Positions 1,415-23,635 of a stretch of 64,000 nucleotides of DNA are shown piece by piece. The stretch's first letter is position 1; the number at the start of each line of letters is the position of its first letter. Under the pieces are notes generated by a model. It was not told the DNA's origin, made no database searches, and saw nothing but the letters and a program-made list of their open reading frames with translations. Origin of the DNA: a virus; IMG/VR virus record IMGVR_UViG_3300033145_001255, positions 1-64,000 of that record. The stretch is one strand, 5' to 3'. The translations under genes and the position numbers were made by a program.

Positions 1415-1563
1415 ACCATTCATCATAATGGAAATTAGCAGTAAGTCCTATCCGACCTAAGTCCAAGTATGCTATCTGATACTGATAGCTGCGGAATGAC
1501 GACGGGCAGCAGTTGAACTGGGGTGGCGCATGCGCCCCCCCACCAATAATTACGAGTGATATC
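1415..1563 (+). other. Structured leader before the terminase
   Basis: GCTATC 1471-1476 pairs with GATAGC 1484-1489. The perfect palindrome GGCGCATGCGCC lies at 1525-1536, followed by a C-run. A frame open from 1513 crosses this hairpin, so ATG 1564 is preferred as the terminase start. A role as terminator or 5' leader is inferred. Confidence 0.4.
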
Positions 1564-3213
1564 ATGCCAGAAGTACTACAGATAAAACTGGACTACAAGC
1601 CGCACAAGTTCCAGCAGCAATTCCACGCCAGCCAGAAGATGATACGACTTATGAGTAGCGGGATTCGCGGCGGGAAAAGTGTCGGATTAGTTATGGAAGC
1701 TATCAAGCTCGCGCATGCGGGCTGGCTTACATTCAAAGTACCAAATGAAGGATGTATAGTCTCACCAACCTTCCCGATGCAAAGGGATATCTTGCTACCT
1801 ATTTTTAATAGTGTAATAGAAAAGGCAGAAGCTCAAAGCGGATTTAAACTAGTCAGACAGTTCAACAAGAACGAGATGATATGCAACTTCGCAAACGGCA
1901 GTAGGATACTATTCAGAAGTGCCGAGTTCCCCGACAGACTGCGCGGTCCTAAGTTCCAGTGGTTCGCACTCGACGAGCCGCGCGAGATGAAGAAGGAAAT
2001 CTACCCTGTCATGCATGGGCGTATCGCAGACTCGGACGGATGCGGCATCCTGGCGACAACGACAAAAGGGCATGATTGGGTTTATAATGATATTATAAAA
2101 CCGTTCAACGAGAAGACAGACATGGACCTGGATGTTATCAGGTGGACGTCTTACGACAATCCGTACTTCCCGAAGCACAGGATAGAGAAGCTAAAGCAGT
2201 TATACACCGAAGAGTTCTTCAAGCAGGAATGCATGGCGGATATCATTGCCATCAAGGGCGTGGTCTATAAGGACTTCTCGCGCTTCAAGCATGTGCAGGA
2301 CTTCTCACTCGACAGGCTGCGCGGGTTCATTGCCGGGGTTGACTTCGGCTATAACCAGCCCGCGATTGTATTGGTGGGTTTCGATGCTGACGGCGCGGCC
2401 TATGTCTGCGACGAATGGTACGAGTCCGAGAAACTCACGTCTGATATTATCGGGGTCTTGAAATCATGGCAGCAGCAGTACAAGCTTGATATTGTGCTGT
2501 GTGATCCTGCCGACCCGGGCGCTATCAAGGAATTGCAGGACGCTAACCTGCCGGCAGTGCCAGCCAATAACGCGGTGGCAGTCGGTATCAATAAGGTAAG
2601 TGAATACCTGCGCCCCGGCAGGCTGACTATCCACTCGCAATGCGTCAATCTGATTAAAGAGATTGAGGTCTATCATTACCGCGAGGGGACTGACGCGCCA
2701 GTTAAGGTTTATGACCATGCGTGCTTCCCGGCAGGTACTATGATAAATTTGAAGGACGGTGACAAGCCAATCGAGAAGGTTGAAGTTGGTGACATGGCGC
2801 TGACTCGCAAGGGCTACAGGAAGGTATTGGTTAGCGGAATGACAGGCAAACACGAAGCATTAGTTAGAATAGACCTAGACTTTGGCACTGTTCTTAGATG
2901 TACTGCCAACCATCCTATCTTTGCCTGGCGCGGTGAAGACGTGCAAGGTAGATTCATACGCGCGGATAACCTCACACTTAATGATTTTGTAATGCTGCAA
3001 CCTAAACTTTCTCAAATTGCTCAACAGATAAATATCAATAAATTGAGTCATCTGGATAAATTTGAGCCAGTCTATAACCTCGAAGTTGAAGACATGCACG
3101 AATATTTCGCCAATGGCATACTGGTTTCAAATTGTGACGCGCTCAGGTATAGCCTCGTTGGCGCCAAGAAAGAGGAAGAAGCCAAGCAGCCGGATTATGT
3201 TGTTAGCTGGTAA
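1564..3213 (+). CDS. terL: Terminase large subunit with mini-intein
   Basis: 549 residues including a 137-residue intein; the spliced product would be 412 aa, normal for TerL. It is the packaging motor: an N-terminal ATPase and a C-terminal nuclease that cuts concatemers. Walker A-like SSGIRGGKS is at residues 31-39 and the Walker B-like phrase is WFALDEP. ATTTKG looks like the coupling motif. The nuclease shows GVDFGYNQPA and LCDPADPG, with the last acidic site in DHA/CDALRYSL, which the intein splits. ATG 1564 is chosen over 1513 because the earlier frame crosses a GC-rich palindrome. Confidence 0.93.
   Translation: MPEVLQIKLDYKPHKFQQQFHASQKMIRLMSSGIRGGKSVGLVMEAIKLAHAGWLTFKVPNEGCIVSPTFPMQRDILLPIFNSVIEKAEAQSGFKLVRQFNKNEMICNFANGSRILFRSAEFPDRLRGPKFQWFALDEPREMKKEIYPVMHGRIADSDGCGILATTTKGHDWVYNDIIKPFNEKTDMDLDVIRWTSYDNPYFPKHRIEKLKQLYTEEFFKQECMADIIAIKGVVYKDFSRFKHVQDFSLDRLRGFIAGVDFGYNQPAIVLVGFDADGAAYVCDEWYESEKLTSDIIGVLKSWQQQYKLDIVLCDPADPGAIKELQDANLPAVPANNAVAVGINKVSEYLRPGRLTIHSQCVNLIKEIEVYHYREGTDAPVKVYDHACFPAGTMINLKDGDKPIEKVEVGDMALTRKGYRKVLVSGMTGKHEALVRIDLDFGTVLRCTANHPIFAWRGEDVQGRFIRADNLTLNDFVMLQPKLSQIAQQININKLSHLDKFEPVYNLEVEDMHEYFANGILVSNCDALRYSLVGAKKEEEAKQPDYVVSW
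2722..3132 (+). other. Mini-intein in the TerL nuclease domain
   Basis: 137 residues from Cys (TGC 2722) to Asn (AAT 3130), followed by Cys as the +1 nucleophile. Hint features are CFPAGTMINLKDG at the N-terminus, the block-B-like CTANHPIFAW and the C-terminal block ending ANGILVSN. No homing endonuclease fits in this length. The penultimate residue is Ser instead of the usual His. Removal restores DHACDALRYS, which carries the conserved nuclease Asp. Confidence 0.92.
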
Positions 3214-5960: not shown

Positions 5961-7205
5961 ATGTCGTTATATTCCAGGTTTTCTCAGTTCGCGCGCAATT
6001 TCAGCAAGACTCAACCAAAGGCATTAATCACGTCAGGCCCGAACCTGAACGAGTTCTCAATGAGCGACCAGAAAAACGAACGGATATCAATGGAGGACCT
6101 AGAGAAATGGTATATCAAAAGCCCGCTGGTATTCTCGTCAATCAATATCTTCTCGGATATGTGTTTCGGTAAGGGCGGGTACTGCAAGTCTGACGACCCG
6201 GAAGCTGAGAAACTATGCGAGCGCTCGGTACAGGTAACGAGTTTCAAGCCGACTACTATATCGTGTATCGGTCATACAATTCTATACGGTCAGGCATTCC
6301 AGGAGATACTGTGGTCGAACGAGGGCGAGGGCACAGAGATTGAAGGCTATGTACTAATGGACCCGAAGTCAATCGAGCCTAAGTGGGATAACCATGCGAC
6401 CATACTCCGTTACGAGCAGAAGATTGAAGGCGCTATTGACCATGACAAAGCGCCTAAATGGATTATCTACGAAGAGAACGAGGACGGGACAGTGGGCGAG
6501 AAGAACCAGAACCCATCTATGATATATTATCGGTTCTTTCGGATAGCAGACAACATGCGCGGTATCGGATTTGTCGAGCCGATTTTTCGGAAACTGGAAA
6601 TATACGAAGATATCCTGTTATCTACTAAGGAGATATTCCACAAGTTCGCGTATCCGATGATGCATATAACCAGTAGTTCCGCAAAGTCTAAGTCGGAGAT
6701 GGATAACTTGACGAAGATGTTCAGAGGATTCTGGCGCAAGTCATTCCACGCGACAGGCGAGTCTATCAAGTTTAATCTGCTGAGTGCAAACAGTAAGATC
6801 CCGCAGCTTAAAGGCGAGCGAGAGTCTATTCTGGACGAAATCATTACCGGCTTACGGATACCTAAGCCATTCTTATTAGGCAAGTCAGAATCTTCTGGCT
6901 TGGGCCAGGGTGATATCAAAACTCTACGCGAGAATATAGCAACAGAAGTTTCAATGCTGCAACCGAAATTATCTCAGATAATCGAGGAACAGATTTTCAA
7001 GCCATTACTGGCGAAGAATGATATCAATGCAACTGTCAAGTGGAACTGGCATCCTGTCCGCGCTAAGGACGAGGCAGCTGAGATTGATATTACTATCAAG
7101 AAAATCAAGGAAATCTCAGACGCGAAGATGGCCGGGCTTATGACAGACGAGCAAGGGCAGGCAGCGTTCGATAAATACGTAGAGAACAAAAAAGACACGG
7201 TGTAA
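5961..7205 (+). CDS. Portal protein
   Basis: 414 residues, normal for an HK97/SPP1-type portal, the dodecameric DNA channel at the capsid vertex. The family-like core is MRGIGFVEPIF (about residues 194-204) followed by a helical stem region and LRIPKPFLLGKSE near residue 300. It lies between terminase and protease, as in many tailed viruses. It has its own TATA box and ends 4 nt before the next gene. The phrase MLQPKLSQI also occurs in the intein. Confidence 0.9.
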   Translation: MSLYSRFSQFARNFSKTQPKALITSGPNLNEFSMSDQKNERISMEDLEKWYIKSPLVFSSINIFSDMCFGKGGYCKSDDPEAEKLCERSVQVTSFKPTTISCIGHTILYGQAFQEILWSNEGEGTEIEGYVLMDPKSIEPKWDNHATILRYEQKIEGAIDHDKAPKWIIYEENEDGTVGEKNQNPSMIYYRFFRIADNMRGIGFVEPIFRKLEIYEDILLSTKEIFHKFAYPMMHITSSSAKSKSEMDNLTKMFRGFWRKSFHATGESIKFNLLSANSKIPQLKGERESILDEIITGLRIPKPFLLGKSESSGLGQGDIKTLRENIATEVSMLQPKLSQIIEEQIFKPLLAKNDINATVKWNWHPVRAKDEAAEIDITIKKIKEISDAKMAGLMTDEQGQAAFDKYVENKKDTV

Positions 7206-7209
7206 AATC

Positions 7210-10134
7210 ATGACGACCAAGACAAGAGGAATATACATTGAACCAGCACATGCAAAGCTTATACACAATAATAGCAAGAACCTTATCATCAAGGATAAAT
7301 TCTTCAAGATAAACCAGGATGATATGGTATTGATTACAACCGAGAACGGGCAGGACAAGGCATTAGGCATGATAAGACTGCAACGGCCTGCATCTATCAA
7401 CATTAAAGAGTTCAAGCAATACCGGAAATATCACAAAATTTCAGACGAGACCAGGCGCAGCCAGTGGCCGCACGCGCAGAAGCTATTCGCGTATAAGGTC
7501 AAGCAATACTGCGGGTTCCAGTCACCGAAAGACATAGACGTTATAGTGCATAACGATATTGTAAGTGATGTAAATCTATCTGCTAAGCGCAACATCAATA
7601 TAAAGGTATCAGATTACACGCCCGCCAATATCCCGGACGACAGGCTTAAGTCCGATTTCAGGCAGCTATGCGCTATCAGTACCCGCCGCCAGACAAGGTT
7701 TTCAAATGATGATATCATACTGCTCGGCAGGAAGATAATGCCGGAGCTGATGAGGCGCGGCATAAAGTTCAATAAGACCGGCATGCAGCCTGCAACCTTA
7801 AAGTTAATCAACAAGATTACCAACGATAAAGAGTTCAACATGAAATTCAACTTCAATGCCGACAAGCCGAAATCAGACGGCGAGAATTATTCAACTGCAT
7901 TAAAGTACGACCTGTCAGACATCAAAGACATGGACGGGTTCAGGCAGATAGAACACGCGGAAACAACTGAGGGGCAAGACCAGCACACATACGACCTGTA
8001 CTTCGCAGGTAACGAGTACTGGCTTGCAGATGATAGTATAATCAAATGGCGCAGTCTGAAAGACAGACCGCACGAGGCAGTCGAGGAATGGCACAGGATT
8101 ACCGGGCTGAGGTTGAAGCTTGAAGATTGCGCGCAATACGACGCAGGCTATATCGTACACGACCCCGACAAGATATACGACAATGCATCAGCATACATCA
8201 TATCCAACCCTGACGAGTGCGGGTTCCTCAAAGAAGCAAGTCCCATATCAATACCTGTCTTCGTCCCGGAAGACAAGGCAGACATTGTAAAGGACTGGCA
8301 TCTCGAAGACCTGCGCGTCCTGAAGAAAGGCACAGCTCAGGAATACGAGGGCTATTCAATCAAGTGGACTGGCGACGAGGTAGAGATTATAGATATCAAG
8401 CCGGCAGCGAAGATTGAATCTGAGTTCTCCAAGTGCCGGATATTCACCAGGAGCACAATCGAGCTGGACTTCATCAAGCCCACCAAGCCATATCTCGATA
8501 TGGACGCGCATGTATCCAACGAGTTCTTCGTACTGGAAGACATGAAAGACTTTGACTACACGAACAAGACTCTTGAAAAGAAATACGACGGGCAGCGCCT
8601 GCAAATCCATAAGCGCGGTAACTCGGTCAAGTGCTATACTGCCTACGGCAACCAGATATCACTCAACAAGCTTGGTAATATCCCGAACGAAATCCGGGCA
8701 ATAAACTCACATGCATTCATACTGGACGGCGAGCTGATACTGCCGAACTTAGACCGTGATTACGTGCATGACGCGGTTACAACCGAAGGCTCGGACGAGT
8801 TGGAATACCGAGTATTCGATATCCTGCAGGTAAATGATTCACGTTTGATAGATAAACCTCTATGCCAGCGCAGGCAAATCTTAGAGCGACTTCCACCTTC
8901 GTCGCATGTAAAGGTTTCGCCTGCGCTCAAAGTCACCAAGGACAATATCAAGGGCATGCTAAAGGAAATCCACAAGCGCGGCTACGAGGGCGCGGTCATC
9001 AAGGATACAAACTCTCTATACCAGGACAGGAAGGCATGGCATAAGTTTGTATTCATTACCAACTACCTGAAAAAGACAGAGGACATGCAGAACATGACAG
9101 AAGACGAGTCAAGGGATTATAGGATTACACTTAATAGATTAGACCGCAAGCTGCGCGAGGGCAAGCGCATACCGATGGCAGTAACAGAACTATACGAGCA
9201 AAATACTATCATCCAGAATAATTCTGCCAAGCCGATAAGCGCGCCTAAGTTTACACTCACACGCAGGTTCTGCTGGTGGTATCACCCCAAGAAGAAGAAG
9301 CGCACCCGTAACAGTAAGGACTATCACCTTAAGATGGAATGCCCGTCTGCCTATAAGTTCCATCTCGATAAGAACCCGCAGACTGATACCGAGATAAGCG
9401 CTACTGCATTCACAGAAGGCGGTAAGTATTTCAGGCCCGGCGAATATCAGCCGGGAACAGACCTCAACCAAGACAATCAGGAATCAGTACATATCGAGAA
9501 GATATGCGAGGGCGGGTTCGACATGATCCAAGAAGAGCAGGACATGATGGAGATTAAGTTCAAGGGCAGGAAGTTCAATGGCACGTTCATCTTCAAGCGC
9601 AACGGCGAGACATGGACCATGACGAAAGTCACCAAGAGCAAACAGCTAAGTAAATTACAGTTCGGGTTCAAGGATTTCAGGAACACCACAAGCCCCGTAC
9701 TGGCGAATGATATCAAGTTCCCGTATAGACGCAGGACAATCGCATTCGCGCCCGGGTTCTGGCATCATACAGTATATACATGGGACATCATCAAGGAAGC
9801 GGCAATGAAGATGAAAGGAATACCAATGGTGATGGAACATTCAGACGAGATACTGGACGATTTGGGTACTGTTACTGACGTGTTCATCAACGAGCAAGAC
9901 CAGCGCATCGAGGTCGAGTTCGAGTTGATAGACACTGTCAACGGCAAGGACGCGGCTATACTATTGGAGAACGGCAAGATACCTGCTGTCTCGGTCGCAT
10001 TAGAGGAATGGAGTGACGAGATAGACGGCAAGAACACATGCACGCAGATAGTCGGGTTCGGGCATGTAGCGCTGGTGAAATATCCCGAATGCGCGCCGGC
10101 ACTGATATGCGACAAGGACGGGACTTGCGGTTAG
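7210..10134 (+). CDS. Fusion: ATP-dependent ligase-like domain plus capsid maturation protease
   Basis: 974 residues. Residues about 1-400 are unassigned. Residues about 440-620 carry nucleotidyltransferase motifs: KYDGQR (Lys458), FILDGEL (Asp506-Glu508), YRVFDIL, YEGAVIK (Glu593-Lys598) and WHK (610-612). No clear OB-fold follows. The last 170 residues resemble an S78/HK97 prohead protease, with His877 in VMEHSDE and Ser928 in VSVAL. The position between portal and scaffold/capsid is the usual place for that protease. Lys458 should be adenylated if active; the substrate is unknown. The frame is uninterrupted, so the fusion is real in the sequence. Confidence 0.85.
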   Translation: MTTKTRGIYIEPAHAKLIHNNSKNLIIKDKFFKINQDDMVLITTENGQDKALGMIRLQRPASINIKEFKQYRKYHKISDETRRSQWPHAQKLFAYKVKQYCGFQSPKDIDVIVHNDIVSDVNLSAKRNINIKVSDYTPANIPDDRLKSDFRQLCAISTRRQTRFSNDDIILLGRKIMPELMRRGIKFNKTGMQPATLKLINKITNDKEFNMKFNFNADKPKSDGENYSTALKYDLSDIKDMDGFRQIEHAETTEGQDQHTYDLYFAGNEYWLADDSIIKWRSLKDRPHEAVEEWHRITGLRLKLEDCAQYDAGYIVHDPDKIYDNASAYIISNPDECGFLKEASPISIPVFVPEDKADIVKDWHLEDLRVLKKGTAQEYEGYSIKWTGDEVEIIDIKPAAKIESEFSKCRIFTRSTIELDFIKPTKPYLDMDAHVSNEFFVLEDMKDFDYTNKTLEKKYDGQRLQIHKRGNSVKCYTAYGNQISLNKLGNIPNEIRAINSHAFILDGELILPNLDRDYVHDAVTTEGSDELEYRVFDILQVNDSRLIDKPLCQRRQILERLPPSSHVKVSPALKVTKDNIKGMLKEIHKRGYEGAVIKDTNSLYQDRKAWHKFVFITNYLKKTEDMQNMTEDESRDYRITLNRLDRKLREGKRIPMAVTELYEQNTIIQNNSAKPISAPKFTLTRRFCWWYHPKKKKRTRNSKDYHLKMECPSAYKFHLDKNPQTDTEISATAFTEGGKYFRPGEYQPGTDLNQDNQESVHIEKICEGGFDMIQEEQDMMEIKFKGRKFNGTFIFKRNGETWTMTKVTKSKQLSKLQFGFKDFRNTTSPVLANDIKFPYRRRTIAFAPGFWHHTVYTWDIIKEAAMKMKGIPMVMEHSDEILDDLGTVTDVFINEQDQRIEVEFELIDTVNGKDAAILLENGKIPAVSVALEEWSDEIDGKNTCTQIVGFGHVALVKYPECAPALICDKDGTCG

Positions 10135-10156
10135 AATAAAAATGGGAGTGGTTGAA

Positions 10157-11806
10157 ATGGCTATCAACAGGATTCTTGGCGGGGGATTGTTCGCGTTATT
10201 AGTAATTGCACTTATTGCGCATGCAGTAGATTATCCTATGACGCCGAAGGCTAACATCGACATGCAAGACCATGAGATTCAGAATGTATCTACTATGTAC
10301 GTTGACGTCCTGAATGTCTCGAACTCTACCAACATGCCTATCAATTGGACGATGTTGCAGAACTTCCCGCCATGCTCGTCTACTGGCTATGCCATTACAT
10401 GTCTTGGTGATTCGCTCACGTCTACTTATTTCGGGCTTGACGGCGCGACATTCATGGAGGACTTCAATGCGATGGGCTATTCACTTTTCAACTTGACCAA
10501 CGTAACCGCTGATATCCTGACTGACGGGACAATGCAATGCACGGGCGGGGATTGTATAGACATAGACGACTTGAACGCGACAGAATCATATCTGACAAGA
10601 TTAGTCACATCATTCATACAGCTATCAGGAATGTTTGAGACAGATGTTGATGTAGGTGGTAATAATATCGACAATGCAACAAACATTACCGTAACAGGCA
10701 ACTTCAAAGTAAACGAATACATATTGAACTCGTCACACATACCAGACCATAACGGGCATAGTATATCTAAGACCTTCGAGCATATCATCAACCGCGGTAA
10801 GGCATCAGCTGTGACAGTCGCGCTAACAGGCGGGCTCGGTATCAACTGGACAGCAGGCGAGATATACGACACATCAACAGATACATTCATAAAGACTACA
10901 GCAGGCAGCGGTAATCTAAACGATAACGTAGTGAATTATCTTAAGTGGGTTAGCGGGACAGGACTTACAATTACTACTTCATCTTCTTCAAGCAATGAGA
11001 TACAGATTGCCACATTCTCAACTTATGCAGGGGTAATAAATACATTCAGGGAACATAGCCTCATAAGTGAATCTATTGCAGATACAAGACGCGGGTTAAG
11101 AATAGCATTTCCTATTCGTATCATAAGCGGGATGGCAGTTACAGAAGATGCAAATGTTACTTACGACCTTGACGTTTCAATGAGCGCAGGCGAAGCAATC
11201 AAAGACGGTATAGAGAGGAAGACCCCGTCGGCGATTGATTCGAGGACAACCCCATTAATAAGGCATTTCCATACCGGCGGCGTGTGGGACTATGATACTA
11301 ATGTAGAAATCAGCACTACTCACTACGACGACGGGAATAATCTCGTAGCAATACCTGGCAATAAATGGGCTAAGGCATATTTCATATTCATGAACGGGAA
11401 GTTAGGATTTATATTCCCGAATGAGTATTTCAATAACGAAGCGCAAGCGCAGGACGCGGCATTGCCTGCAATCCCTCCCGGGCTAAGTTTAATCCCGAAA
11501 CTGACTGCAATAGTATATAAATCTAGTGTAAGCGATTTCAACGAAGTTACATGGCAGGATATCAGACCGGGCATAAGCGAGGAATCATTCAATATAGTTA
11601 CAGACCACGGCGCATTAGCAGGACTCGGTGACGACGACCATCCACAATATCTATTAGTTGACGGTACGCGCAACATGACAGGAACCCTAGTGATGTCAGA
11701 TGCAGGCGCGCAGGTAAACACAACAATGATTTCTTCCGGCGGTAATGTCGGATGCTGCGGCATGAACGACGATTACTCGTTATCGTGTACTGCTGGCGCG
11801 TGCTAA
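10157..11806 (+). CDS. Exported fibre-like protein
   Basis: 549 residues. ATG 10157 is chosen because GGGAGTGGTTGAA precedes it; ATG 10142 is possible. A signal peptide (ILGGGLFALLVIALIAHA) is followed by YPMTPKANIDMQDHEIQN, Asn-x-Ser/Thr-rich regions and a C-terminal GCCGMNDDYSLSC motif. The protein at 31499 shares both ends. TDHGALAGLGDDDHPQYL is a motif common in tail fibre-type proteins. It is probably a virion or host-surface protein, although a signal peptide on a virion component is unusual. Confidence 0.7.
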   Translation: MAINRILGGGLFALLVIALIAHAVDYPMTPKANIDMQDHEIQNVSTMYVDVLNVSNSTNMPINWTMLQNFPPCSSTGYAITCLGDSLTSTYFGLDGATFMEDFNAMGYSLFNLTNVTADILTDGTMQCTGGDCIDIDDLNATESYLTRLVTSFIQLSGMFETDVDVGGNNIDNATNITVTGNFKVNEYILNSSHIPDHNGHSISKTFEHIINRGKASAVTVALTGGLGINWTAGEIYDTSTDTFIKTTAGSGNLNDNVVNYLKWVSGTGLTITTSSSSSNEIQIATFSTYAGVINTFREHSLISESIADTRRGLRIAFPIRIISGMAVTEDANVTYDLDVSMSAGEAIKDGIERKTPSAIDSRTTPLIRHFHTGGVWDYDTNVEISTTHYDDGNNLVAIPGNKWAKAYFIFMNGKLGFIFPNEYFNNEAQAQDAALPAIPPGLSLIPKLTAIVYKSSVSDFNEVTWQDIRPGISEESFNIVTDHGALAGLGDDDHPQYLLVDGTRNMTGTLVMSDAGAQVNTTMISSGGNVGCCGMNDDYSLSCTAGAC

Positions 11807-11837: not shown

Positions 11838-12455
11838 ATGCGCCGCATGACAAACCCAGACTTATTTGGAGATACAACCGACGGAGCCGCAGGTATTGCG
11901 GCTATGGCAGAAGCTATAAAGGGAATCCAGAACTCAGTCTCAAAACTTGCTGAAAAAGTTGACGATATAACCAAGAAGAAAAAAGTCGACGACGAAGACT
12001 CCGAGCCAGGTCTTCCAGGCAAGATGCAGGCAGAGTTCGAGAAAACGATTTCCGAACAAAAAGAGAAACTCGAGCAGTTCGAGAAGGATCAGGAAGCGCT
12101 CAAAACCGAGCTAGGCACATTCCAGGCAAAAGAACATACAGAACATATTGCAGGCATTGTTGACGCTCAGTTCGAGAAAGGACTCATAACAGAAGACAAG
12201 AAAGTCGCAAGCGCTGAATCCCTAAAGGACTTCACGAAAGAACAGTTGACCGCGTTCGGTAAACAGATAGAACTCATGAACAGCGAGCCAACCAAGAGCA
12301 AGGCCTTCAAGCAATCCGAGCCAGGCAGTGCAGGCGCAGCAGGCGCAGCAACAGACGCAGCCAAGCTCGAAGCCAAGAAGAAAGAGTTTAGCGCAATGGG
12401 ACTCAAACCCGAGACCGCTGAGTTAATGAAAGCAATGGAGGTCGAGGCCGTATGA
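11838..12455 (+). CDS. Scaffold-like protein
   Basis: 205 residues, almost entirely charged and helical with a coiled-coil centre (about 60-115) and an Ala/Gly-rich spacer (about 158-170). Composition and position just before decoration and capsid genes fit a capsid scaffolding protein, which the protease would later degrade. AT-rich sequence GCTTTATTAAC upstream may be its promoter. Assignment is by context. Confidence 0.65.
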   Translation: MRRMTNPDLFGDTTDGAAGIAAMAEAIKGIQNSVSKLAEKVDDITKKKKVDDEDSEPGLPGKMQAEFEKTISEQKEKLEQFEKDQEALKTELGTFQAKEHTEHIAGIVDAQFEKGLITEDKKVASAESLKDFTKEQLTAFGKQIELMNSEPTKSKAFKQSEPGSAGAAGAATDAAKLEAKKKEFSAMGLKPETAELMKAMEVEAV

Positions 12456-12874
12456 GTGAAGGACTAGTAATCGGATACCAGACAACTTCTGACACTGTGC
12501 CAATCAAAGTGAACAAGATAGTAGTCCGTAACTCGTCAGGCGATGTACTGGCGACAACTGTTGCAGCAGCAGATACACCTATAGTCGGTGTGACCCAGGG
12601 CGCGGTAGCGGCAAGGACAACAGCCTCTCAGAAGGACATACCTGTAAAGATGCAGGGCTTGGCGCGAGTACCGAAACCAACTGACTTGGCAATGAAAGTA
12701 GGATTCATTGTGACTACAAACGGTACGACTACCGTTGGAACAGGTGACGGCTCGACTGTCATCATGGCAACAACAGCTACAACTCTCGGCGGCGGATACA
12801 ACACGCTCGGCAGGGTAGCGAAAGATGCAGCGACAACAGACACGGAAGTTCTGATTGCGCTGAACATAAGATAA
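12452..12874 (+). CDS. Capsid decoration or stabilisation protein
   Basis: 140 residues, beta-rich, Thr/Ala/Val-rich, with PIVGVTQGAV, a VKMQGLARV strand and a terminal LGRVAKDA...VLIALN pattern like DUF2190-type head decoration proteins. It overlaps the scaffold stop by ATGA and immediately precedes the major capsid gene. Confidence 0.7.
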   Translation: MSEGLVIGYQTTSDTVPIKVNKIVVRNSSGDVLATTVAAADTPIVGVTQGAVAARTTASQKDIPVKMQGLARVPKPTDLAMKVGFIVTTNGTTTVGTGDGSTVIMATTATTLGGGYNTLGRVAKDAATTDTEVLIALNIR

Positions 12875-12887
12875 GGAGGAGATGAAA

Positions 12888-13766
12888 ATGTCAGACTACA
12901 ATATTAAAAACTTCTCCGCTATCGTCGATACGTCACAGCTACCTACCAAATTATCGGAAGGCATTAAAGCTGCTGCAATCGAGAGATTGATGGAGGTAGT
13001 ACTGCTTAGGAAACATTTCTATGTAGACACAGGCACAATGGACGAGGGTTCAACCACCTTTACCTACAATGTGATGGACAGGTCTACAGCAGCTTACGAC
13101 AGGGTACAGGGCACAGACGTCACACTCGATAACGAGGACGTGAGCGAGAGTTCCGTGACTGTCTCTGAGATTACGAAAGGATTCTCAATGTCATGGCCGG
13201 CAGACAATCTAAAGAAAATCAACCTGCGCGTCGCCAAGACAAAGGAATACGTCAATCTCGTCAAAGACCGCGAGGACTTGAAGATTGCGACTGCACTGAT
13301 AGCATCAGGCGCGCTAACGTCAACTGTCTCCGCGAGCGCGGCACTGAGCGCGTCAGACGCCAACCCTATCAAGAACATCAAGGAAGCCAAGAGAAAGGTA
13401 AGAGCGCTGATGGGCGGCCAGAACCCGAACTTACTGTTAATCGAAGATGAGAATCTCGAAGAGCTTGCAGTCATTGTCGGGTCGAACGACTGGTACAAGA
13501 TGACCGAAGAGTCAGTGCGCACAGGCGAACTGCCTACATTCATGGGCTTGAAGATTGTGGCACTACCAACAGGCAAACTCACACACGGAACAGCAGTTGT
13601 ATGTATGGGCGGGCCTAACGGATGCTTGCATCTCGGTCAGGCGCATGATACTCGAATCAAGATATTCGACGACCCCAAGAAACACGCGACAGAAGTGCAC
13701 GTGTACGAGCGCGTAGTACCGGCAGTTATCCGGGCCGATGCGGGAGCCAAAATCACAGGATGGTAA
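12888..13766 (+). CDS. Major capsid protein, HK97 fold
   Basis: 292 residues from ATG 12888, 7 nt after AGGAGG; ATG 12882 is too close to the SD. Signs are an N-terminal helix, the FYVDTG and TFTYNVMDRS strands, a spine-helix-like DREDLKIATALI segment, LLIEDENLEELA (A-domain) and a C-terminal beta strand ending RADAGAKITGW. The strong SD fits a highly expressed virion protein. The N-terminus is short, so no large delta domain is evident. Confidence 0.88.
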   Translation: MSDYNIKNFSAIVDTSQLPTKLSEGIKAAAIERLMEVVLLRKHFYVDTGTMDEGSTTFTYNVMDRSTAAYDRVQGTDVTLDNEDVSESSVTVSEITKGFSMSWPADNLKKINLRVAKTKEYVNLVKDREDLKIATALIASGALTSTVSASAALSASDANPIKNIKEAKRKVRALMGGQNPNLLLIEDENLEELAVIVGSNDWYKMTEESVRTGELPTFMGLKIVALPTGKLTHGTAVVCMGGPNGCLHLGQAHDTRIKIFDDPKKHATEVHVYERVVPAVIRADAGAKITGW

Positions 13767-20843: not shown

Positions 20844-21020
20844 ATGACCGTCTGCAACCTATGCGGCTACGACAACGAGAAGCCAATAGGGCGCGTAGCC
20901 GAGGACTCGAAGGAAGGAGAAGATGTGGCAGTTACATTAAACGACAATGGCTTGAAGGCAATGTTTTGCCTTAAGGGTCACATGAAAGACAAGATGAAGA
21001 AGACGAGGATATCATTATGA
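20844..21020 (+). CDS. Small Cys-containing protein (58 aa)
   Basis: Preceded by the coupling-cassette sequence GAGGCTGATTTAAA. CNLCGY near the N-terminus and a later FCLKGH could form a zinc site. Overlaps the next start by ATGA. Confidence 0.55.
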   Translation: MTVCNLCGYDNEKPIGRVAEDSKEGEDVAVTLNDNGLKAMFCLKGHMKDKMKKTRISL

Positions 21021-22078
21021 AAACAGCAATAGTAATACCGACAATCAAGACAGTACCAGACTGCATACTCACATTAAATGCAGATATAATCATAGTACGC
21101 GACAAGGGCAGACCACAACAAAGCGACGAGTTCGATACAATCACAAAGCGCAAGCAATGGCTAAACAAGCACGTAGGTTTCGCGCCTGATTTCCTGTTGA
21201 GGAAGCAGGGCGACAGCGCAAGGAACTTCGGGCTATTAGTGGCATACCAGCGCGGCTATGACAGAGTAATCTCGATGGACGATGATGTCGAGGTCAAGGA
21301 CGGGTTCCTGACAAGTCATAATGTTGGCAAGACAGATTCGGAATTATCCAGTATTGCATCGTGTAAGTTTCTGGATGTCATGGATTATATGGATGTTGAT
21401 ACTGAGAGTAATATCAAGCAACGCGGATATCCATTCGAGCTTAGAGATGAACATTCAGATTCGTTCAATTCAACGAGGAAGGGCAACGTAAAGATGAATA
21501 TAGGGCTATGGTCTGGCATACCAGACTGCGGCGCGATTGATAAGATACTCGGCATTGACTGGAAGTGCAAGTGCGATCTCAAAGAGCAGATAGCAATACC
21601 TATCGGCACAGACGCGGCTACATGCACAATGAACCTGAGCATGACGAGAGATGTCATTCCCGCTTTCTACCAGCCGGACATGGGAGTAGAAATAATGCCT
21701 GGCATGAAGCTTGACAGATTCGGCGATATGTGGGCTGGATACATCCTAAAGAAACTCATAGACATCAAGGGCGATATCATGACATTTGGAGCGCCCGTAG
21801 TCGAGCATCTGAAAGAGGGCGAGCTGAATAAAGAACTCGTAGGCGAGTATGTCGGCAATATGATGTATCGTGATTTTAGGGATATTGTTGACATATCAAT
21901 TTCGCGTGTACGTGAAGATAGTTATCTGAATATGTATAAGGAATTTGTGTACGAGTTCAGTGAACGCGCAAGTAACATATGTACTCGACCTGATGCTTAT
22001 CTTAAATATTTCCAGTTACTATCGCGCAATATGCTAGTCTGGATTAAGTGCATCGAGATGATAGACGAGGGGAATTGA
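21017..22078 (+). CDS. RGP/UDP-arabinopyranose mutase-like protein (GT75)
   Basis: 353 residues. It resembles reversibly glycosylated polypeptides: SMDDDVEV (acidic metal/nucleotide motif), RGYPFELRDEH, GLWSGIPDCGAID and RFGDMWAGYILKKL. In plants and some microbes this family interconverts UDP-arabinopyranose and furanose and self-glycosylates. The archaeal-virus role is inferred: supplying a furanose or other sugar to the transferases nearby. Confidence 0.75.
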   Translation: MKTAIVIPTIKTVPDCILTLNADIIIVRDKGRPQQSDEFDTITKRKQWLNKHVGFAPDFLLRKQGDSARNFGLLVAYQRGYDRVISMDDDVEVKDGFLTSHNVGKTDSELSSIASCKFLDVMDYMDVDTESNIKQRGYPFELRDEHSDSFNSTRKGNVKMNIGLWSGIPDCGAIDKILGIDWKCKCDLKEQIAIPIGTDAATCTMNLSMTRDVIPAFYQPDMGVEIMPGMKLDRFGDMWAGYILKKLIDIKGDIMTFGAPVVEHLKEGELNKELVGEYVGNMMYRDFRDIVDISISRVREDSYLNMYKEFVYEFSERASNICTRPDAYLKYFQLLSRNMLVWIKCIEMIDEGN

Positions 22079-22079
22079 C

Positions 22080-22532
22080 ATGGAAAAACATAAATTGAAA
22101 TGTAAGAACTGTGGAGAGAGAGCGAACGTGGTTGAGATTTGTCCTGATGCTAACGACGAGTATTTCTGCTCGCAGGAATGCATTGACAAAATCAACAGCA
22201 AAGAAGGGCGCGCTTATCGTCTGCTCGGCGTGTTCGCGCTGAATGATGATGGCTCGACAGGCAAGAGATTGAGCAGGCAAGAGACAACTTACGACGACGA
22301 CCTTAAGCTATTGGCGAAGTTCAAACCAAGCCTACTATTGAGAATCGGGTGGTGGATGACAGGCAAGGCAGATTCGTTGGCATCACAGGGAGACTTACAG
22401 TATAACTTAGATAAAATCCATAAGCCAAACCCTGACGAGATTGATTTCCTAAAGGCATACTATGCCAAGCGCGAACTCGACAGGCGGGCACGCAATCAGA
22501 AGAAGTTTATCGAGGGCTTGAAGAAGAAGTGA
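22080..22532 (+). CDS. Zinc-finger-like protein (150 aa)
   Basis: The N-terminus has CKNCGE and later CSQEC, an FCS- or TRASH-like ribbon. The remainder is helical and basic. No known family; it is cotranscribed with the sugar genes. Confidence 0.6.
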   Translation: MEKHKLKCKNCGERANVVEICPDANDEYFCSQECIDKINSKEGRAYRLLGVFALNDDGSTGKRLSRQETTYDDDLKLLAKFKPSLLLRIGWWMTGKADSLASQGDLQYNLDKIHKPNPDEIDFLKAYYAKRELDRRARNQKKFIEGLKKK

Positions 22533-22537
22533 TTATA

Positions 22538-23635
22538 ATGGAAAGGCAACCAGTGAAAGTAGAGAAAGTAGATAATGGCGTATTACGGTGGTTCAAATGC
22601 GAGTCATGCGGTAAAACATCAGAAGACTGGATAGATACAAAAACCTCTAACTGCTTTGCTAATACTGGCCTATGTCATAGGTGTTATTATGATAGCCTAA
22701 AACCAATCCAGGGATTCACGCTGATAGCAGAAAAAGATATGATTAAAGTTCCATACCGAACTGTCGGAAAAGAGAAGGAGGAGAACATTATGGACAAGAT
22801 GATAAAAGGAATAAGCAAAGTCCTAAACCCGAAGAAGCAGGGCAAGACCGCGCGCGAGGACAAGTGCGTGGTAATCGGGCATATGGGTGAAGTTGGTTCT
22901 GCGCTAAAGAAGATGATTGAAGGAGCAGACTATTGGTGCGCAGGCTTCGACCTAAGCTGCAGCGAGAAGATAGCTAACGATACCGAAGTAAAGTTCATGC
23001 ACATAACCATCCCGTACATCAACCAGAAGCAGTTCACAAGCGCAGTTCTTGGCTACGCAAAAGAAATCAAGCCTGAGATAATGATAATACACTCGACAGT
23101 CATCCCGGGCACAACTAGACACATCCGAAAGCAGATGGAGAAATGGGCTGGCAGGCCTCAGCTCGCATACTCGCCATGCAGGGGCCAGCATACTAAGCTC
23201 ATGGAAGACTTCAAGCGCTACGACAAGTGGGTTGCCAGCGAGCAGAAATGCAGGGAGTCTGTTGAGTTCCATCTCAAACATCTCGGCATGCGCGCTATCG
23301 GATTCTCAGACAGGCAATGGGAACATCTCGAAGTCAGCAAGCTTATAGACACAAGCCAGTACGGGATACTCATCACATACGCGCAGGTTGCCAACAGGCT
23401 CGCCAGTAAATACAATGTTCCTTATAGTATGGTGCGCGACTTCATGAGCCAGACAAACGAGCTATACAATAACAGGCCAGATATAACCCCCGGCTATGTG
23501 GGCGGTAAGTGCGTGAGGCAGAACATAGACCTACTAAAGCGCATCATGCCGCACGAGCTATGGCGTGTATTCGAGCAGAGCAACAGACAGCGCGCTAAGG
23601 AGTTGGGCTTAAGCCCGGACGAGATGAAAGAGTAA
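22538..23635 (+). CDS. Zn-ribbon fused to nucleotide-sugar-dehydrogenase-like protein
   Basis: 365 residues. Residues about 18-50 form a CxxC...CxxC ribbon. After a linker comes a Rossmann segment VVIGHMGEVGSALKKM, then IIHSTVIPGTT and GGKCVRQNIDLL, reminiscent of UDP-glucose/GDP-mannose dehydrogenases with the catalytic Cys in GGxC. An ideal internal start exists at ATG 22790 after AAGGAGGAGAACATT; it would give a 281-aa enzyme without the ribbon. Two products are possible. Confidence 0.65.
   Translation: MERQPVKVEKVDNGVLRWFKCESCGKTSEDWIDTKTSNCFANTGLCHRCYYDSLKPIQGFTLIAEKDMIKVPYRTVGKEKEENIMDKMIKGISKVLNPKKQGKTAREDKCVVIGHMGEVGSALKKMIEGADYWCAGFDLSCSEKIANDTEVKFMHITIPYINQKQFTSAVLGYAKEIKPEIMIIHSTVIPGTTRHIRKQMEKWAGRPQLAYSPCRGQHTKLMEDFKRYDKWVASEQKCRESVEFHLKHLGMRAIGFSDRQWEHLEVSKLIDTSQYGILITYAQVANRLASKYNVPYSMVRDFMSQTNELYNNRPDITPGYVGGKCVRQNIDLLKRIMPHELWRVFEQSNRQRAKELGLSPDEMKE

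Follow-up and report, generated by a model that had tools for sequence, protein, structure and literature searches.

A candidate virion polyvalent protein with a DNA ligase-like core and a capsid maturation protease in a probable archaeal tailed virus

Introduction

Why should a virus make a DNA ligase-like domain in the same polypeptide chain as its capsid maturation protease? This question is raised by a reading frame at the left end of the window, by which we mean the 64 kb analyzed here out of a virus record of 69,215 bases. A sequence-only reading of this stretch had found the adenylation motifs of a ligase upstream of an S78-like protease and had considered a packaged ligase that seals ends or an internal ligase released by the protease. 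The virus is tailed and its host is probably an archaeon. Matches of the major capsid protein and of the tail tube in archaeal genomes are weak (tblastn for the major capsid protein), and an archaeon is our best guess for the host.

Results

Translation confirmed that the window is open from 7210 to 10134 as one uninterrupted, stop-free frame of 974 codons. The ATG at 7210 lies 4 nt past the stop of the portal gene (7205), and the base composition is even along the frame. A chance ORF was considered and set aside. An assembly artefact behind the fusion is very unlikely because the same architecture, when sought in other viruses, was found on independent contigs. The genes at the left end follow each other in the order terL, portal, 974-aa frame, fibre-like protein, coiled-coil protein, small protein and major capsid protein (Table 1). 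The polyprotein is encoded among virion genes, between the portal and the scaffold/major capsid genes, which is where a protease gene belongs, as had been proposed.

Two further observations concern the surrounding genes. An intein-like Hint domain is present toward the C-terminal end of the terminase large subunit (1513-3213; Pfam Intein_splicing, E 4e-9). At 21017-22078 and 22529-23635 lie a reversibly-glycosylated-polypeptide family protein (Pfam RGP, E 2e-16) and, close by, a weak match resembling UDP-glucose dehydrogenase, as would suit a virus that modifies glycans.

Table 1. Features at the left end of the window and domains of the 974-aa polyprotein (residue numbers refer to the polyprotein).
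Feature	Position	Strand	Basis
Terminase large subunit	1513..3213	+	phrog_2 E 2e-41, Pfam Terminase_6N; packaging context
Portal protein	5961..7205	+	phrog_9232 E 2e-13, Pfam Portal_Mu
974-aa polyprotein: N-terminal, helical, unassigned, ligase core, phosphoesterase-like, assemblin-like protease	7210..10134	+	
N-terminal domain, residues 3-111, common to L096, L069 and a 1880-aa ORF	7216..7542	+	phmmer, tblastn
Helical domain, residues 134-202	7609..7815	+	phmmer to L096, E 6e-5
DNA-ligase nucleotidyltransferase domain, residues 420-615	8467..9054	+	Pfam PF01068, model, PDB matches, alignment
Residues 616-678, OB-fold position in relatives, none predicted here	9055..9243	+	model, alignment
LigD 3'-phosphoesterase-like (PE) domain, residues 679-810	9244..9639	+	PDB 3p43/3p4h, alignments, motif audit
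Assemblin/S78-like capsid maturation protease, residues 846-966 (H877, S928, possibly H952)	9745..10107	+	
554-aa protein, secreted or fibre-like	10142..11806	+	no family match
Coiled-coil protein, likely scaffold	11838..12455	+	position and composition only
Small protein, likely capsid decoration	12452..12874	+	position
Major capsid protein	12882..13766	+	phrog_1650 E 2e-9; weak tblastn matches in archaeal genomes

The residues on which the sequence-only reading had been based (K458, DGE 506-508, E593, K598, WHK 610-612, H877 and S928) are all present, and its ligase-like half was borne out by profile search and structure prediction. Pfam DNA_ligase_A_M (PF01068) matched residues 443-612 with an E-value of 5e-26 and a score of 92 (cut-off 26.2), and DNA ligase 3 in the PDB was matched by sequence with E 1e-11. 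An AlphaFold model of residues 397-693, built from a 20-sequence alignment, reached pLDDT values of 81-97 across most of 437-611 and matched human ligase III, archaeal ligases and ligase I (best E 5e-13, probability 1.00); the nucleotidyltransferase fold was found. In the same alignment motifs I (K458-YDGQR), III (E508), IIIa (F536-D537) and IV (E593-G594, K598) and residue K612 are conserved with the relatives. Most relatives also retain the OB fold and motif V, whereas in the window copy motif V is incomplete and the C-terminal OB fold, with motif VI, is not seen: in the alignment motif V (KxK) has no second lysine, and the model predicts no OB fold, with pLDDT <50 for residues 617-693. Because of these two losses the window copy probably cannot seal nicks alone. 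Its core can probably still bind ATP and perhaps adenylate itself or bind DNA. The packaged ligase sealing ends that had been considered is therefore weakest for the window copy; the relatives have both elements.

Two parts of the protein had been overlooked in the sequence-only reading, a phosphoesterase domain at residues 680-807 and the N-terminal domain that is common to other members (residues 3-111). The ligase and the PE/protease parts were modeled separately, from two shorter alignments. The model of residues 669-974 has a mean pLDDT of 72 and was built from an alignment of only 8 sequences; its first PDB matches are the archaeal LigD phosphoesterases 3p43 and 3p4h (E 4e-5, probability 1.00), and 3n9d, 3n9b and 2lj6 are also among the top matches; the domain thus has a PE fold. 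Alignments and a motif audit revealed that the conserved His and the His-x-Asp-x-Arg active-site motif of LigD PE are absent from the window copy, which reads KDYHLKM compared with HHDLRL in L007 and HFDLRF in L169 (L numbers denote our viral lineages and contigs). The strict PE motif was found in L007, L084, L091, L095, L097, L098 and L169. Taken together, the cargo in the window copy looks partly degenerate.

The same model matches herpesvirus assemblins in the PDB (E 0.009-0.02, probability 1.00) and capsid or prohead proteases in BFVD (best E 2e-6), and the catalytic His and Ser follow each other in order, H877 and S928 aligning with the relatives. The match to Pfam Peptidase_S78 (PF04586) stays below the cut-off (12.7 bits vs 21, E 0.15), and the curated libraries gave a weak match to the protease half (phrog_2263, E 3e-5). 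A fair test was provided by an HMM made from three relatives with the window protein left out, since the window's own score in a protease survey of 17 lineages is circular: this HMM found the window protease at E 5e-6 among 6882 ORFs and scored it with 29.5 bits, compared with at most 5.9 in 500 shuffles. The window protease also aligns with stand-alone head proteases encoded beside ligase polyproteins (L084, L086) and with the C-terminus of L091; a tblastn search with it in phage records gave no match. The earlier calls of a fusion and of an S78-like C-terminal protease, here assemblin-like, were right.

The N-terminal domain was matched by phmmer inside the ligase polyproteins L096 (E 4e-10) and L069 (E 1e-8), and by tblastn in a 1880-aa ORF of the Thermoproteota assembly G625 (E 2e-11). 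Residues 203-419 are a possible degenerate polymerase-beta-like nucleotidyltransferase, judged solely by alignment position. The N-terminus of the 1652-aa protein of L091 (4270-9225) shows a weak Pyr_excise (pyrimidine-dimer DNA glycosylase) match (E 8e-4, below the Pfam cut-off), and a helical segment resembling it occurs in other members, perhaps also in residues 134-202 of the window protein.

Relatives were gathered by two scans of viral contigs with ligase-motif alignments, one scan of genome contigs and searches of archaeal genomes. Only the ligase-motif alignments worked in IMG/VR; single-sequence scans with the 974-aa polyprotein, the terminase and the protease found no relatives there. 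The genome-contig scan with the ligase-motif alignment returned mostly cellular ligases of Verrucomicrobiota. Clustering at 40% identity resulted in 17 divergent lineages of long ligase polyproteins located in structural clusters of tailed viruses, and the order terL-portal-polyprotein-scaffold-MCP of the window recurs in relatives. In 9 of the 17 the fused protease lies at the C-terminus or close to it (L026, L091, L007, L095, L096, L097, L100, L169 and the window), and in six it is encoded downstream of the ligase as the next gene or nearly so (L099, L084, L086, L098, L236, L069). Within L099 it lies at most 300 nt downstream in 46 of 62 loci, and in L069 the ORF after the ligase polyprotein is a protease-MCP fusion. 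An ANMV-1-like provirus (L237) has the protease two genes from the ligase, and L008, read by eye only, may carry it N-terminally. A scaffold-like tail follows the protease in L007 and L169, so that "C-terminal" is not to be taken literally everywhere.

An HMM search of the flanks of stand-alone ligase loci detected such a protease in none of 69, a control limited by the fact that these loci mostly resemble Bacillus SPbeta-like phages, whose protease type the HMMs may miss. The proteases of the polyprotein lineages differ in type (XkdF (PF14550), S78, the window/L091 type and the L169/L007 type), from which it appears that ligase and protease were coupled, or their coupling reshuffled, on more than one occasion. 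The contig L215 has a portal-like gene, the protease and the decoration gene without a ligase; its protease, 48% identical to that of L169, directly follows the portal-like gene, and the ligase module is therefore optional. A 799-aa protein at the same position in vir519 (Methanofastidiosa) was rejected as a member: it is protease-like, but has no ligase and no significant similarity.

Concerning hosts, L169 was found in a Candidatus Methanoperedens assembly, whereas the assemblies that contain L236 and a 1761-aa ligase ORF share phylum and class with a Nitrososphaerales genome. L197, binned as Ignavibacteria, is 91% identical to L169, and this contig may be misbinned.

Several relatives contain additional domains. 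The 2845-aa ORF of L100 (1385-9919) seems to combine four C5-methyltransferase-like repeats, read by eye, with nucleotidyltransferase-like, ligase, PE-like and XkdF protease parts in a single chain, and the ligase polyprotein of L098 (6491-12354) has, again by eye, Nudix-like, uracil-glycosylase-like and methyltransferase-like stretches. The gene after the latter encodes a methyltransferase (phrog_56, E 2e-49) joined with XkdF. Methyltransferase cargo in these relatives fits genome protection. In the marine viral contigs L110, L099 and L163 many proteins of the structural cluster begin with an MSW(K/E/F)(D/E)(I/L)LK-like sequence, which by analogy with T4 internal proteins looks like a common capsid-targeting signal; the ligase polyprotein does not begin with it.

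Discussion

Our best reading places the window protein in a branch of the known polyvalent proteins that belongs to archaeal viruses. We consider it fairly probable that the product of this gene is a polyvalent protein of the virion, namely a capsid maturation protease with DNA-end-repair cargo at its N-terminus. From the observed domains, gene order and recurrence we infer a course of packaging, cleavage, injection and repair. The protease part would draw the polyprotein into the procapsid, an entry for which the chain of L007 and L169, running on into its scaffold-like tail, can be cited. At maturation the protease would cut itself and the scaffold and thereby free the cargo inside the head, where it would remain until it enters the cell with the DNA. 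In relatives with intact domains the two enzymes would then act on the incoming genome, the PE domain by cleaning 3' ends and the ligase by sealing nicks or joined ends. With its OB fold and PE motifs lost, the cargo of the window copy likely does no more than bind DNA or serve the capsid interior, or it works together with another ligase. The earlier idea of an internal ligase set free by the protease came close to this reading, except that the cargo comprises more than a ligase, a LigD-type phosphoesterase being present as well.

The coupling of ligase and protease in many unrelated archaeal-type viruses suggests that a repair kit is packed with the DNA. More generally, tailed archaeal viruses of many lineages might package a DNA-end-repair kit that the capsid protease both tethers and sets free, which would make maturation and entry repair one genetic unit; this wider proposal, in which the kit consists of a ligase, a LigD-type PE, often a polymerase-beta-like nucleotidyltransferase and sometimes methyltransferases, we put forward tentatively, with about as much doubt as confidence or slightly more.

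Several points weigh against our best reading: the OB fold, the second motif-V lysine and the PE motif missing from the window copy, the S78 score below the cut-off, and the tails that follow the protease in L007 and L169. A further one is that a ligase placed ahead of a protease may instead meet a need of head assembly, nick repair before packaging, without any injection. Nick-free DNA is important for packaging in other phages. In this alternative, which we regard as unlikely, the ligase and PE domains would mend nicks or ends of the DNA at the portal, either ahead of packaging or while it proceeds, and their fusion with the protease would reflect only that the procapsid requires both. The position of the polyprotein gene directly after the portal gene agrees with it, but the fusion with the protease implies a place inside the shell and away from the terminase, and the methyltransferase domains of relatives would be more useful for shielding incoming DNA.

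It is rather improbable that the ligase-like and PE-like domains of the window are decayed relics kept as structural parts, forming an arm on the N-terminal side of the protease that binds DNA or fills space. The unpredicted OB fold, the missing second motif-V lysine and the degenerate PE motif would be expected of such an arm; conservation of motifs I, III, IIIa and IV together with K612 is not what a pure relic usually shows. An ordinary replicative ligase that came to lie beside the protease and to be fused with it by chance was set aside as very improbable: ATP-dependent ligases of marine archaeal viruses are listed among replication genes (PMC10160649, PMC10768690), although those are not necessarily the present polyprotein genes, and the repeated coupling in unrelated lineages with none in the 69 stand-alone controls, the PE and other cargo and the position in the structural cluster all speak against it.

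If the reading as a virion polyvalent protein is true, some viral ligases shift from the list of replication genes to the virion, and a repair enzyme made within the capsid protease offers a testable answer to the question how viral genomes survive entry.

Comparison with known systems

No paper describing a ligase-PE-protease polyprotein was found among the open-licence papers searched. When L091 was compared with 50,697 annotated phage records, the archaeal virus ANMV-1 (KP703175) was the sole match at E <1e-10; the family is for this reason nearly invisible in current annotation. The 866-aa ANMV-1 protein AJP62006.1, annotated simply as "ATP-dependent DNA ligase", is a similar polyprotein with nucleotidyltransferase-like, ligase and PE-like stretches directly after a portal-like gene, but unlike the window protein it has no protease in the chain. 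The "MutT-like phage hydrolase" of the same record (L087; 1913-3193) reads as a portal by eye and by its position upstream of the ligase polyprotein.

As in LigD of prokaryotic NHEJ and the archaeal stand-alone PE (3p43, 3p4h), an ATP-dependent ligase core occurs with a PE of the same fold. The window protein differs from LigD in its ligase-PE order and in its fused capsid protease, no primase-polymerase domain was detected among the Pfam matches of the polyprotein, and it lacks the OB fold and intact PE motifs. With the XkdF/Peptidase_S78_2 and S78 head proteases it shares the assemblin-like fold, the His/Ser pair and a gene between portal and MCP, but its protease is preceded by about 800 residues of cargo. 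PHROGs already contains families in which XkdF is combined with a methyltransferase (phrog_1530) or an "RNA ligase" (phrog_14859); fusions of ligase-like domains with XkdF sit unremarked in family libraries.

A close likeness is to the phage polyvalent proteins defined by Iyer et al. (2017; PMC5512222), whose assemblin-like peptidases are noted there to be always at the C-termini and for which processing during virion assembly was proposed. The window protein is likewise a large multi-domain protein of a virion gene cluster with enzymatic cargo and a C-terminal head-type protease, and it combines several disparate domains in one chain (the ligase core, the PE-like fold, the protease and the shared N-terminal domain). 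The ligase passages of PMC5512222 considered here deal with RNA ligases, whereas in the window a DNA ligase core is found with a LigD-type PE. The paper also states a "particular paucity" of polyvalent proteins in archaea, whereas the present family occurs in archaeal-type viruses, to which, if our reading is true, the polyvalent proteins would be extended.
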